The notes below the pieces were generated by a model. That model had not been told where the DNA came from. It ran no database searches and saw only the letters and a program-made list of their open reading frames with translations. From positions 1 to 38,782 of the IMG/VR virus record IMGVR_UViG_3300037258_000239: a DNA stretch of 38,782 bases. One strand, 5' to 3'. This DNA comes from a virus. Made by a program: the position numbers and the translations under genes. Positions 31,030 to 38,782 of this stretch are shown one piece after another. Numbering within the stretch: position 1 is the first letter of the stretch; every line of letters starts with the position of its first letter.

Positions 31030-31476
31030 TTATTCCTCCTCAGCAAAGGTAAAAGAATTTATAAGGTCTTGAACTTTTGAAATTTCTACAGGATAATGAT
31101 CTATATATTGTATATCTTTTCTTTCTTCCAAAAATTTAATGTTTTTATCTGTCAAATCTCTGAAACTTCTTAAAAAGTCTATTAAAGATTTTTTATGTTT
31201 AATTATTGTTTTCTTGTTTTTATTTTTGGAATTGACAAAATTTTCTATATTGATCCCTTTTATTTTATTCTCTTCTCGTCCCTTTATAAGCCATTCTTTT
31301 TCGTCAACCGTATGTTCAAAAGCATTTGGCATATCTTGATAGCTATTTAGGGTGCGACGGAACCAAGCGCCACCGGTGCCGCGACACAGGGCATTAGGAC
31401 AATGCCAAATCCCTCTTGCCTCAACCCTATCATCTTCGATGCCGCATGACTGACAAATTTCCTGGTTATATTCCAT
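31030..31476 (-). CDS. Zinc-ribbon protein (148 aa)
   Basis: 148 residues. An N-terminal zinc ribbon (CQSCGI...WHCPNALC) at 9-30 is followed by a charged, lysine-rich helical region (NKNKKTIIKHKKSLIDFLRSFRD). It overlaps the phosphoesterase stop by one base. Function unknown. Confidence 0.6.
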   Translation of the reverse strand: MEYNQEICQSCGIEDDRVEARGIWHCPNALCRGTGGAWFRRTLNSYQDMPNAFEHTVDEKEWLIKGREENKIKGINIENFVNSKNKNKKTIIKHKKSLIDFLRSFRDLTDKNIKFLEERKDIQYIDHYPVEISKVQDLINSFTFAEEE

Positions 31477-32168
31477 TATAAAATAATCCTTACCGGTTTA
31501 TTTACCGGGTCATATTCTTCATTGACGATAGAAGCATTTACAAAAATTGTGTCGTTTTTATCTTCTGAGCGTTCAAAAGTAAATTTCTTTCCCCCTTGCT
31601 CATGAATATGGCCAAATAAGTGGAGAAGGGGCGCTACATCTAAAGTCCTCGCCAAAAGAGAAGGACTACCCACTTTCTGCCCTCTAAATGTCAAATCGAA
31701 CATATCATAGGGGGGGCAATGAGTAATTAAGATGTCCGTATCATCGGGTATCATATCCCATTCTTCCGATAATCTTCTTTCGGTATTATCATCGAAAGGA
31801 ATCGTAAAAGCGCAGCAGTGCGGATTAATGCCTTTGAATTGTGCAGTCCATGGAGAGCCCCAGATCTTATATTTATTCCCTTTGAATTCATATTCCGTAC
31901 CTGAATCGCATAAATATGTTACTGTAGGCCTTCCAACTAATTCATCATAAATCGAATCATTAGATTTAATCCACTGCTCACAGAAATTATCATGATTGCC
32001 AGCTATCATAATTTTCCGATCATATTCTTGTTTATCTAGCCAATCAAAAAAATTACCCCATGCCTTAACTTTATCATTTGAGGTACAGTCTCCCGCTATT
32101 AGAAGCAGATTACCGCCTTCCAATTCTGGAAATTCTCCGTGCATATCTGAGATACAGTCAACAATCAT
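31476..32168 (-). CDS. Calcineurin-like metallophosphoesterase
   Basis: 230 residues. All signature motifs are present: DMHG at 8-11, GDCTS near 26, AGNHDN near 56, the late THCPPYDMFD, and FGHIHEQGG near 185. These bind two metals and hydrolyse phosphomono- or diesters; in phages they include 2',3'-cyclic phosphodiesterases and general nucleases. The next gene but one upstream is an RNA ligase, so a role in RNA end repair is plausible but unproven. Confidence 0.85.
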   Translation of the reverse strand: MIVDCISDMHGEFPELEGGNLLLIAGDCTSNDKVKAWGNFFDWLDKQEYDRKIMIAGNHDNFCEQWIKSNDSIYDELVGRPTVTYLCDSGTEYEFKGNKYKIWGSPWTAQFKGINPHCCAFTIPFDDNTERRLSEEWDMIPDDTDILITHCPPYDMFDLTFRGQKVGSPSLLARTLDVAPLLHLFGHIHEQGGKKFTFERSEDKNDTIFVNASIVNEEYDPVNKPVRIIL

Positions 32169-32171
32169 TTT

Positions 32172-32372
32172 TTATTTCCTCTTCAATTTAGGAATGTCCC
32201 AATATCCTTTTTTATGTTCCATTGGGGATGTCCATACTTCATTAAATTTTTTATAGGTATTACCATCAGGAAAATCTTTAATATTTCTTCGGAGCTTTCT
32301 ATTGGCTTTTCTTTTCCAATCTTTTGCGCCATCGGCATTTCCGTAATAGGGTTTTCTATGTGAGCGACTCAT
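32172..32372 (-). CDS. Small basic protein (66 aa) between ligase and phosphoesterase
   Basis: 66 residues, strongly basic (SRSHRKPYYGNADGAKDWKRKANRKLRRNIKDF). It overlaps the ligase stop and ends three bases before the phosphoesterase. Nucleic-acid binding is likely from composition. No named family. Confidence 0.65.
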   Translation of the reverse strand: MSRSHRKPYYGNADGAKDWKRKANRKLRRNIKDFPDGNTYKKFNEVWTSPMEHKKGYWDIPKLKRK

Positions 32373-33352
32373 GTTTCATAATTTAAATTGATAATTTTAA
32401 AGCTGATAGGTTTATGTTGTAATAAATTATTTTGAGATCTTACGACAACACCTTCGCGCTGTTTCCCGCTATTTTTATAAATGCCTTCTCCTAGTAATTC
32501 AAGACCTTCTTTCCTGAAATCTTGCCTCATAGTCAGTATAGGGACTGTAGGAAAGTTCAATGAGCGACATAACCCAATGAATTCGTACATAGTTAAGTAA
32601 CGCCCTTCTGGAATATTATAGGCAGAGAATGCCAATCCATGAATATCTTTAAAGCCGTATGGATTGCCCTGTATCTTAGGGCCGCAGGTTTCCCACTGAA
32701 GCGCTATTCCATCCGGGAGTTTTTCTTCTAGATTATATTGTATGGCGATTTTCCAATAGCCATTATTTTCATCTCGTTTTAACTCCCAATTTCTAGAACA
32801 TACCCCAAATTCACCTTTATATTTAAAAGACGTCGTAGATGATCCATCGGCTTTCTCGGTGATATAATATGAAAAGCCCTCTAAGCATTCTATCAATTCG
32901 GGGACTTTTTGGTAATTTGGTTCATCAGTTTTGGGTATGAAATCTGGAAAATTACCTTTTGCATCACATGCTAAATTAGCTGGAATAGGTTTACAATACT
33001 TCGTAACCTTGACCAATTCCGTCACATCGTAGCCAATAGATCTATTACAAGTGATAGGGAAATGTTTTGTAATTAATACCTCACTGGGTGCACCTCTATA
33101 TCTCCTCATTTTGACGCGCCAATTTGAATCTTTCATAAATGGAAAATCTTTATGATCAACTTCATTGAAGAGGCTGTCAGGGAGGAAAACAAGGCATTCA
33201 TCATTTAAGACAAAATCTGTTTTTCGGATGATCCCTTTCCATTTACCGCCCTTCCCGCAAATAACCGTAGCGGAAACGATAAAATCAGCGTTGGGGATAT
33301 CTTCAATATTAATAATCTTCCCTACATAAACTAAGCCTTTATTTTCTTCCAT
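32369..33352 (-). CDS. RNA ligase, DRB0094 (Rnl5) family
   Basis: 327 residues. N-terminal OB-like domain (about 1-110: VGKIINIEDIPNADFIVSATV) precedes the nucleotidyltransferase domain: motif I EKADGSS with the adenylated lysine K167, motif IIIa in GIALQWETCG, motif IV EGVVVRS (300-306) and motif V SFKIINLNY (317-325). The N-terminal OB domain before the catalytic part is typical of the Deinococcus DRB0094 group. It joins RNA 5'-phosphate to 3'-OH ends and may repair RNA cut by host defence. It overlaps a small basic gene and precedes a phosphoesterase. Confidence 0.85.
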   Translation of the reverse strand: MEENKGLVYVGKIINIEDIPNADFIVSATVICGKGGKWKGIIRKTDFVLNDECLVFLPDSLFNEVDHKDFPFMKDSNWRVKMRRYRGAPSEVLITKHFPITCNRSIGYDVTELVKVTKYCKPIPANLACDAKGNFPDFIPKTDEPNYQKVPELIECLEGFSYYITEKADGSSTTSFKYKGEFGVCSRNWELKRDENNGYWKIAIQYNLEEKLPDGIALQWETCGPKIQGNPYGFKDIHGLAFSAYNIPEGRYLTMYEFIGLCRSLNFPTVPILTMRQDFRKEGLELLGEGIYKNSGKQREGVVVRSQNNLLQHKPISFKIINLNYET

Positions 33353-34294: not shown

Positions 34295-34523
34295 CTTTTC
34301 CCCCTGGTGGGTTAGGTAAAATCATCCAATGCGTAACATTACCAAAAAATCTATCCGTGGCAAAACTTCCAATTTCACCATCTTTCCAAGTACAAAGTCT
34401 ATCTATTGCATAATATTTTTCATCTTGATCGAAAATGGTTCCCGTTTTATTTATGTAGTATACCAATACATCGACAAACGGTTCTGGCAATTTATCTTCA
34501 ACTTTTATCCATTTATTTTTCAT
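34287..34523 (-). CDS. DUF551-like protein
   Basis: 78 residues. WIKVEDKLPEPFVDVLVYY and THWMILPNPP are the two ends of the DUF551 pattern, small proteins frequent in phage early regions, function unknown. A paralogue is at 37236-37457. Its ATG is the end of the right-hand element of a 21-bp direct repeat (34521-34541). Confidence 0.7.
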   Translation of the reverse strand: MKNKWIKVEDKLPEPFVDVLVYYINKTGTIFDQDEKYYAIDRLCTWKDGEIGSFATDRFFGNVTHWMILPNPPGGKDE

Positions 34524-34541
34524 ATATTTAAAATTTTAACC
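34521..34541. repeat. 21-bp direct repeat, left of the cytosine methyltransferase
   Basis: Begins CATATATTTAAAATTTTA and ends ACC (+ strand). An identical 21-mer lies at 35343-35363. On the - strand it ends in ATG: here the start codon of the DUF551 gene, at the other copy the start of the overprinted reading frame. Confidence 0.85.
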
Positions 34542-35328
34542 CCATTAGGATTTTAAACGCTTCTTTGGCCTGTTGTGGTACCACTGAATTCCCAAGGCAC
34601 TTAATGCGCTCCACTCTGTTTGGTACCCCATCAGCCATTCTACAAATTGAGGATTCACTTTCCCAGAACCGATCGCATCCTGTAGTGTGTAGTGATGGCC
34701 GTTCTGGTTCTTCCTGGCTCCTCTGATACTTGCATCGGGAGTCGGCCACATCCTCACTGCTGCCGGAAGACAGGGAGTTTTGCGATTCTGTGCCGCTGGT
34801 TCGCTTCCTGATTCTTTCCAATCCCTCGCCGTTGGCGTGGGCCAATAGGAACCAACGTTCCCTTTTGTGATGTGCACCAATGGACGCAGCGGATATAATG
34901 CACCATCGACAATCATACCCCATCGAGGCAATTTGCCTAACCACTTCATTTCCTCCTCTGGAAGTAATGGCAGGGACATTTTCCAAAAAGATAAATCTCG
35001 GCTCAATTTCGCGACACAAACGCACGATCTCGAAGAATAAGCCGCTTCGCTCTCCTGCCAAGCCTTTTCCAGCACCTGCAATGCTGATGTCCTGGCATGG
35101 AAAACCTCCGTATATGATATTAATTGACGGTTCATATGAGTTTTTAGCAGAAAAGGTGTTGATATCATTCCAAATTGGTGCAAGGGGTAAAATTCCATCG
35201 GCCATTCGTGAGAGGAGCACTCCTTGACAGTAGGAGTCGATTTCACAATATGCGATTGGTCGCACCCATTCGTTAAGTGCGATTGAAAGTCCTCCGATTC
35301 CTGAAAAGAGATCAAGTCCGTTAAGCAT
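34528..35328 (-). CDS. C5 cytosine DNA methyltransferase
   Basis: 266 residues from the ATG at 35328; an in-frame GTG at 35343 would add five. Motif I LDLFSGIGG (5-13), motif IV GGFPCQDIS with the catalytic Cys78, motif VI ENVPAI (116-121), motif VIII-like GAHHKRERWFLLAH, and motif X GNSVVPQ near the C-terminus. It methylates cytosine in a short DNA target set by the variable region around 170-225, probably against restriction. The whole gene is overlapped by a second open frame (34545-35345) and flanked by 21-bp direct repeats. Its GC content is visibly higher than that of its neighbours. Confidence 0.92.
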   Translation of the reverse strand: MLNGLDLFSGIGGLSIALNEWVRPIAYCEIDSYCQGVLLSRMADGILPLAPIWNDINTFSAKNSYEPSINIIYGGFPCQDISIAGAGKGLAGERSGLFFEIVRLCREIEPRFIFLENVPAITSRGGNEVVRQIASMGYDCRWCIISAASIGAHHKRERWFLLAHANGEGLERIRKRTSGTESQNSLSSGSSEDVADSRCKYQRSQEEPERPSLHTTGCDRFWESESSICRMADGVPNRVERIKCLGNSVVPQQAKEAFKILMGLKF

Positions 35329-35345
35329 GATAGATAAACCCACAT
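34545..35345 (-). CDS. Overprinted second reading frame in the cytosine methyltransferase gene
   Basis: 266 residues in another frame of the same strand, from the ATG at 35345. The N-terminal 80 residues look random. From FHARTSALQVLEKAWQESEA on, the pattern (FWKMS, LPRWGMIVDGALY, then WPTPTARDWKESGS, and VNPQFVEWLMGYQTEWSAL) matches what I recall of a protein family found next to, or overlapping, phage C5 methyltransferases. The start is preceded by the 21-bp repeat that also precedes DUF551. Whether translated is untested; the conserved motifs argue against chance. Confidence 0.55.
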   Translation of the reverse strand: MWVYLSCLTDLISFQESEDFQSHLTNGCDQSHIVKSTPTVKECSSHEWPMEFYPLHQFGMISTPFLLKTHMNRQLISYTEVFHARTSALQVLEKAWQESEAAYSSRSCVCVAKLSRDLSFWKMSLPLLPEEEMKWLGKLPRWGMIVDGALYPLRPLVHITKGNVGSYWPTPTARDWKESGSEPAAQNRKTPCLPAAVRMWPTPDASIRGARKNQNGHHYTLQDAIGSGKVNPQFVEWLMGYQTEWSALSALGIQWYHNRPKKRLKS

Positions 35346-35363
35346 ATATTTAAAATTTTAACC
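35343..35363. repeat. 21-bp direct repeat, right of the cytosine methyltransferase
   Basis: Identical to 34521-34541; the copies are 822 bases apart. On the - strand it spans the end of the 35358-35909 gene and the start codon of the overprinted frame. Deleting one copy and the intervening DNA would join the 35358 gene directly to DUF551. Confidence 0.85.
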
Positions 35364-37891: not shown

Positions 37892-38064
37892 TTTTTATTC
37901 CCCCAATTGGATGGTAAATTTGGAGGTCTAATCCCGCAATAGGGGCAATATTCAATCCAAGTGAATGTTTCAGGATCTCCTTTAAAAAGTAGCCAAAATT
38001 GTTTACCTCCTGGTGTTAACCATGTTTCGGTCATGCCACCTTTGCAGGTATGTTCTTCAAACAT
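37888..38064 (-). CDS. Small zinc-ribbon protein (58 aa) after the methyltransferase
   Basis: 58 residues from the ATG at 38064, which overlaps the methyltransferase stop (TAATG). CKGG, CPYCGI and GGKQFWLLFKGD are visible; a zinc ribbon is likely. An upstream frame extension to 38199 is only shadow of the methyltransferase gene. No named family. Confidence 0.65.
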   Translation of the reverse strand: MFEEHTCKGGMTETWLTPGGKQFWLLFKGDPETFTWIEYCPYCGIRPPNLPSNWGNKK

Positions 38065-38782
38065 TAGATAAATCCCTCGTGAGAAATAATCTCGCCATTT
38101 CGCTTGATGATGGCATTGAACCCCTGCTTGGCGCAATAATTGATATAGCGCTTTATGATAACATCGCAGTAAGCTCGGGAAAGCTCTATTCCTATGCAAT
38201 TGCGCTTCAGCATCTCAGCGGCTATAAGTGTGGTTCCTGACCCCAAAAAGGGGTCAAAAATATTATCATTCTCTTTTGTGTAATCTTTTAAAATTTCCTG
38301 AAATAATTTCAATGGTTTTTGCGTAGGATGAAATCTCTCTTTTTCCTTACCTAATAATCCATTCCACAAAATTTCATATTTTTTTACTGATTTTCTTTCT
38401 ATGTTTGTCCAGGCCAACTCACAGTCTCCAAATGTTGGCATTGTATTTTTTTTATCCCATACTAACCAATGAGTCGAACGTGGTAAGATATCGGAAAAAA
38501 AATTTCCCCCAAAAATTATGTTTAAATCGCATTGCTCAATCAGTATTTTGAAAGTTTCTTTCGTTGGTCTATCTTCATCCCAATTATCAGAATATTTTCT
38601 TCTAGGAATTTTTTTTCCTTTTCCTGAAAATCCTCCCGATCCTGAAAACCCTTTATCCATGTTTATCCCATAGGGAGGATCTGTAAGCATCAAAATAGCT
38701 TTGGTTTCGGCCAAGATTCGTTTAAGAATATCTGGGCTTGCACTATCTCCACAGATAAGACGATGGCTTCCCAATTCATATA
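38064..38782 (-). CDS. ParB-domain DNA methyltransferase (N6-adenine/N4-cytosine), C-terminal part
   Basis: C-terminal two-thirds of the protein that starts at position 605 on the other side of the join; the frame is open to the window edge. Motif IV (DPPYGI, whole-protein residues 194-199) comes before the SAM-binding motif I (DPFLGSG, 336-342), the order typical of beta-class amino-methyltransferases. ERFHPTQKPLKLFQEIL lies between them, as in the N6_N4_Mtase family. The stop codon overlaps the next start (TAATG, 38062-38066). Expected role: modification of phage DNA against host restriction, or regulation. No cognate restriction enzyme is seen. Confidence 0.93.
   Translation of the reverse strand, partial: YELGSHRLICGDSASPDILKRILAETKAILMLTDPPYGINMDKGFSGSGGFSGKGKKIPRRKYSDNWDEDRPTKETFKILIEQCDLNIIFGGNFFSDILPRSTHWLVWDKKNTMPTFGDCELAWTNIERKSVKKYEILWNGLLGKEKERFHPTQKPLKLFQEILKDYTKENDNIFDPFLGSGTTLIAAEMLKRNCIGIELSRAYCDVIIKRYINYCAKQGFNAIIKRNGEIISHEGFI
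38656..38782. repeat. Terminal redundancy, right copy
   Basis: Exact copy of positions 1-127. It lies inside the ParB-methyltransferase gene, and removing one copy restores one open frame of 1,197 nt. Confidence 0.95.

Follow-up and report, generated by a model that had tools for sequence, protein, structure and literature searches.

Two same-strand overlapping reading frames as the probable subunits of a split phage cytosine methyltransferase

A locus on the minus strand of the window (the whole 38,782-nt stretch of viral DNA analyzed, IMG/VR record IMGVR_UViG_3300037258_000239) was found to carry two overlapping reading frames, here called alpha and beta. Both frames are under coding selection, with the motifs of an m5C methyltransferase divided between them, and there is strong support for two coding frames being overprinted on the same strand. 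The locus is interpreted as a heterodimeric phage m5C DNA methyltransferase, the two subunits of which are overprinted on the same strand (probability of about 0.86). Judging from the sequences, alpha and beta are most likely two parts of one enzyme, whose activity is predicted. The first-pass annotation of this DNA had claimed two full-length minus-strand frames, and both alpha and beta (266 codons) proved to be open across about 800 bp; the beta motifs that it had quoted were also recovered exactly as given (LPRWGMIVDGALY, WPTPTARDW, and VNPQFVEWLMG). The features of the locus are as follows:

34528–35328, minus strand: alpha, predicted catalytic m5C methyltransferase subunit, 266 aa (ATG at 35328, stop at 34528; alternative GTG start at 35343)
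34545–35345, minus strand: beta, the +1-frame ORF relative to alpha, 266 sense codons (ATG at 35345, stop at 34545); its conserved core runs from about residue 80 to the C-terminal end
35290–35316, minus strand: alpha motif I, LDLFSGIGG, SAM binding (translation and HhaI alignment)
35083–35109, minus strand: alpha motif IV, GGFPCQDIS, with the catalytic Cys (invariant in the alignment of relatives)
34840–34863, minus strand: alpha motif VIII, RERWFLLA (translation and HhaI alignment)
34636–34794, minus strand: alpha linker, residues 179–231, low complexity and predicted to be disordered (AF2 pLDDT <50; no alpha consensus there)
34567–34596, minus strand: alpha motif X, LGNSVVPQQA (G246 and N247 invariant and P251 nearly invariant in the alignment; AF2 pLDDT of about 95 in the following helix)
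34893–34931, minus strand: beta segment LPRWGMIVDGALY, over alpha motifs VII–VIII, where the codon of alpha G137 yields a beta Gly
34818–34844, minus strand: beta repeat WPTPTARDW, putative target-recognition region (P-T-P at least 90% conserved in the alignment)
34731–34751, minus strand: second beta repeat, MWPTPDA (translation; PTP motifs are repeated in relatives)
34626–34658, minus strand: beta motif IX, VNPQFVEWLMG
34521–34541, minus strand: direct repeat GGTTAAAATTTTAAATATATG, downstream copy
35343–35363, minus strand: direct repeat GGTTAAAATTTTAAATATATG, upstream copy

The exact 21-bp direct repeat found on both sides of the methyltransferase gene (0.01 matches expected by chance in the window) may mark the insertion of this gene as a cassette. 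The neighboring genes, also on the minus strand, encode an N6/N4 DNA methylase (38064–38774), an RNA ligase (32369–33352), and a calcineurin-like phosphoesterase (31476–32168).

The alpha protein matched PHROG_363 (E = 4.5e-66) and PF00145 (E = 2e-39), the latter over residues 3–194 and profile positions 2–192 only. It contains motifs I–VIII and X, but not motif IX, and the solved structures of M.HhaI and M.HaeIII aligned with it by sequence over motifs I–VIII only. The gene had been described in the first-pass annotation as a complete methyltransferase with all key motifs, which was incorrect in view of this partial coverage and of the location of motif IX in beta. The AF2 model of alpha, for which, as for the other structure predictions, the alignments were built without rows from phage records, consisted of a confident catalytic domain and motif X helix, separated by the residues with pLDDT below 50. 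Its best structural matches were M.HhaI and M.HaeIII, with about 170 aligned columns. In monomeric m5C methyltransferases, the recognition domain and motif IX sit where alpha has its disordered linker. Therefore, while alpha shares the catalytic domain of M.HhaI and M.HaeIII, it lacks the recognition domain and motif IX that these enzymes hold in the same chain as motifs I–VIII, and does not belong to the full-length monomeric class: alpha is an incomplete methyltransferase.

The missing elements were encountered in the other frame. Beta carries WPTPTARD/PTP repeats opposite the alpha linker, followed by VNPQFVEWLMG, and this last segment aligned with the in-frame motif IX of a related single-chain enzyme, L115 (hhalign, E = 1.7e-5), which has both motifs IX and X in the alpha frame and is covered by PF00145 over positions 1–313. 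Residues 73–214 of beta matched PHROG_1008, "DNA methyltransferase" (E = 6.8e-23); although this name suggests an enzyme, the match corresponds to a recognition/IX/X subunit devoid of catalytic motifs. No significant Pfam or NCBIfam family was obtained for beta in profile searches, and the search of the PDB by sequence returned only one weak and irrelevant match (E = 0.3). The AF2 model of beta alone was of low confidence (pLDDT 63.5), so the lack of any match in the fold search with this model was to be expected. The recognition role of beta is thus a prediction based on its position, motif IX, and its relatives. Among bacterial genomes, the closest match to beta (51% identity) was found in L325, a contig of a Bacteroidetes MAG, which is a hint at Bacteroidetes as the host group.

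A long second frame could also be a mere shadow of the first, if the conservation and codon usage of alpha kept the +1 frame open and conserved-looking. Some beta features do underlie conserved alpha motifs, e.g., FxARTS beneath GGFPCQDIS, and such features can be common to methyltransferases with differing C-termini. The stop codons in the +1 frame were counted against a null in which the alpha protein and the codon counts were fixed for each relative and the synonymous codons were shuffled. For the window gene, 7.8 stops were expected and two were present, both confined to the final six codons, where beta is ending or has already ended. Across 39 loci, 122 stops were observed vs. 365 expected, mostly at the two gene ends, the other frame giving 704 vs. 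672. When the count was restricted to the core (from codon 75 to 35 codons before the end) of 29 non-redundant loci, picked by the alpha protein only, no stop was observed in the beta frame against 127.8 expected, and the third frame behaved as predicted (279 vs. 301). The absence of interior stops in the beta core of these 29 relatives also answers the objection, raised when the double frame was first described, that close relatives might interrupt it. As a control, 31 full-length canonical bacterial methyltransferases taken from genomes that share their phylum with a Bacteroidetes bin were used, because the streptococcal phage methyltransferases, which were the first choice, carry a conserved nested +1 ORF of their own. 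No stop depletion was detected in the control (649 observed vs. 620 expected), and the median of the longest open run was 56 codons. The original assertion that such a double frame is unlikely by chance in AT-rich DNA was borne out as to the improbability but not as to the AT-richness, the GC content of the gene being 0.47.

The synonymous codons of alpha were biased toward the needs of beta, as the check for constraint proposed by the first-pass annotation had sought. In the alpha-selected loci, G137 was encoded by GGG in 28/28 cases and G234 in 28/29, when 17% of the Gly codons were expected to be GGG from the same genes; likewise, V239 was GTG in 21 of 22 loci (28% expected). These forced codons match what beta requires for WGM, MG, and GW. 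The significantly constrained columns were concentrated from alpha residue 73 onward (26/38 in residues 73–119 and 14/26 in residues 120–169, compared with 8/39 before residue 73), near the point where the beta motifs had first been noted to begin. Since shared ancestry explains part of this codon-choice signal, distant pairs were also compared. In pairs with 24–40% alpha identity, the similarity of beta exceeded the permuted null with a mean z of about 4–6, whereas the third frame gave about 1.5–2. Moreover, at motif IX beta was conserved above alpha: over alpha residues 226–240, in pairs below 45% alpha identity, the mean BLOSUM score was 3.20 for beta vs. 1.67 for alpha. In three loci (L142, L153, and L154), beta even continues alone after the end of alpha, through the recognition region and motifs IX and X; homologues of beta sequence outside the overlap, the lack of which had been named as grounds for rejecting the second frame, do exist. 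With no stop where 128 were predicted, a control without depletion, and a beta frame that surpasses alpha in conservation at motif IX and outlives it in some loci, it is extremely doubtful that beta is only a shadow of alpha.

The distribution of the motifs was compared in more than 100 related loci. With the beta profile, 71 IMG/VR loci were retrieved, all of them over a methyltransferase in the same relative frame, and the scan with a DNA pattern for beta NPxx[FW]VEWLMG yielded at least 80. Motif IV was found in 66 of the 80 pattern loci listed, always in the alpha frame (66/66) and never in the beta frame; in the other 14, the sequence ended early or the motif expression was unmatched. No stand-alone beta lacking an alpha partner was detected among the 71 profile matches and the 66 resolvable listed pattern loci from IMG/VR. 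Three layouts could be distinguished. In the window and most loci, motif X is in alpha and motif IX in beta. In L142, L153, and L154, both motifs are in beta and alpha ends right after motif VIII, and the L142 beta matched PHROG_1008 over nearly its full length. In L115 and L116, both motifs are in alpha and only the PTP region is in beta; these two loci also have a second m5C methyltransferase, in a different frame, directly upstream of the overlapping one. Loci in which motif X has passed to beta do not maintain an open alpha frame across the recognition region, and therefore the linker of the window-type alpha probably serves only for reaching motif X.

Programmed +1 ribosomal frameshifting, joining both frames into one long chain, would agree with the invariable +1 position of beta, and if the shift occurred after motif VIII, the chain would run from motifs I–VIII through the recognition region to motif IX. 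Such a fusion would, however, lose motif X, which most loci encode in the alpha frame (69 of the 80 pattern loci listed), and it would exclude the part of beta that is constrained upstream of motif VIII (the LPKWGM segment and residues 73–119). For these reasons this explanation is considered quite improbable. An internal Shine-Dalgarno sequence and ATG for beta, which also argue against it, were recognized in some relatives from Firmicutes phages, namely L007 (AAAGGAG-N7-ATG), L239, and L242. The alpha and beta start codons are four bases apart in Salmonella S9-5, a cultured phage that shares the layout of the window, and in Acinetobacter ABMM1. No clear ribosome-binding site was found for the beta start in the window, nor any common start codon or Shine-Dalgarno sequence across the relatives.

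Beta could also be genuine but serve a different purpose, for instance as a regulator or an anti-restriction protein, instead of being a recognition subunit. This is suggested by the streptococcal phage methyltransferases (L239 and L245–L323), in which a single chain contains motifs IX and X and yet motifs IV–VIII are overlapped by a nested +1 ORF that is conserved, and it is compatible with beta having no solved relative. On the other side, beta holds the motif IX that is absent from alpha, and in some relatives motif X as well, and an entirely different role is very unlikely. Nevertheless, because of these streptococcal enzymes, the beta segment over motifs IV–VIII may do more than complete alpha. 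The streptococcal nested ORF ends in LSDILEExVxEKYFLS, a segment that is in frame in some bacterial methyltransferases, e.g., L331, and the G of the GY motif was GGG in 41/44 cases. These genes are possibly a second overprinted methyltransferase family. Streptococcus phage MM1 orf13/orf14 (DQ113772), annotated as "C5 methyltransferase alpha/beta subunit," resembles the window in having a +1 ORF nested in the methyltransferase gene, but the MM1 alpha is a single-chain methyltransferase with motifs IX and X, and the nested ORF lacks the PTP repeats and VEWLMG.

Additionally, motif IV of alpha was found to be broken by a 6-nt insertion containing an in-frame TGA between Pro and Cys in 12 IMG/VR contigs (L359–L370), and also in L048, L049, L054, L056, L066, L067, and L070; this insertion is absent from the window. 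It has the form CCN-TGA-NCA-TGY (GGFP*NCQD), and alpha is open and conserved downstream of the TGA. Beta is open across the insertion, L362 being the exception, with a beta-frame segment that ends nearby. Skipping TGA-NCA would give back GGFPCQD, similarly to two phenomena treated in a review (PMC5009743), the "stop-hop" and the bypassing in T4 gene 60. An HNH-like ORF, called by a Cys/His motif pattern, lies just upstream in the alpha frame in 8 of the 12 contigs; Pfam gave only weak helix-turn-helix matches for these ORFs, with which the HNH insertions described in phage methylases (PMC11855218) may be compared.

By analogy, the organization of the locus has a characterized precedent. The small subunit of M.EcoHK31I is encoded within the gene of the large one, in an alternative frame, and a second gene overlapping the first in another frame is likewise found in the window and its relatives. 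As described, the large subunit of M.EcoHK31I contains motifs I–VIII and X and the small one motif IX (PMC3404938). To judge from this description of the motif layout, the window shares its partition with M.EcoHK31I (and M.EaeI; YGGCCR), beta carrying motif IX on what would be a separate second polypeptide. The predicted recognition domain of M.EcoHK31I is, however, in the large subunit (PMC3404938), whereas in the window the predicted recognition region appears to lie in beta, and all that alpha has there is a disordered linker. In M.AquI, the split comes partway through the variable region, with motifs I–VIII and the recognition parts on two polypeptides and motif X on the small subunit (PMC3404938); the window departs from this type by having motif X in alpha. 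An M.AquI-like layout is present in L142, L153, and L154, with a long overlap, and in the phages MeeZee (gp78/77) and Lilbooboo (gp32/33), which are annotated with two "DNA methylase" genes and a short overlap. Two nested "DNA cytosine methyltransferase" genes are annotated in Paenibacillus phage Likha.

We therefore favor two separate subunits over the alternatives above. Alpha, in frame 0, would bind SAM, perform catalysis, and provide the closing helix through motifs I–VIII and X, and beta, in frame +1, would contribute motif IX and the target-recognition region with its PTP repeats. A separate beta polypeptide would be translated from an internal start and would assemble with alpha, filling the gap left by the disordered linker. 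Together they would methylate a specific site in the DNA of the phage, probably protecting this DNA from host restriction. As for the early suggestion that two related functions are overprinted here, the coding overlap on the same strand is upheld by the stop and synonymous-constraint analyses; a separate second function is not, as beta most likely supplies the recognition region and motif IX.

No paper on this phage arrangement was found in a literature search that was thin for subscription journals. What seems under-recognized is how common the arrangement is in phages, the location of the recognition region in the overprinted frame, and the varying placement of motifs IX and X among relatives. 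It is rare for both products of a long same-strand overlap to belong to one enzyme, and such cases are easy to overlook, as annotation generally retains a single frame. On balance, we think it probable that these loci form a large and old group of phage m5C methyltransferases with the DNA-recognition half permanently overprinted on the catalytic half, in which motifs IX and X were moved between frames by lineage, so that the enzymes form a natural series, at one end monomer-like and at the other fully split, and beta may be a specificity subunit evolving under, and constraining, the catalytic gene. If this is true, many phage "DNA cytosine methyltransferase" entries are annotated with only one half of the enzyme, and the prediction of specificity and the cloning of these genes would fail without beta. 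The differing motif partitions among the relatives would make the evolution of split enzymes directly testable.
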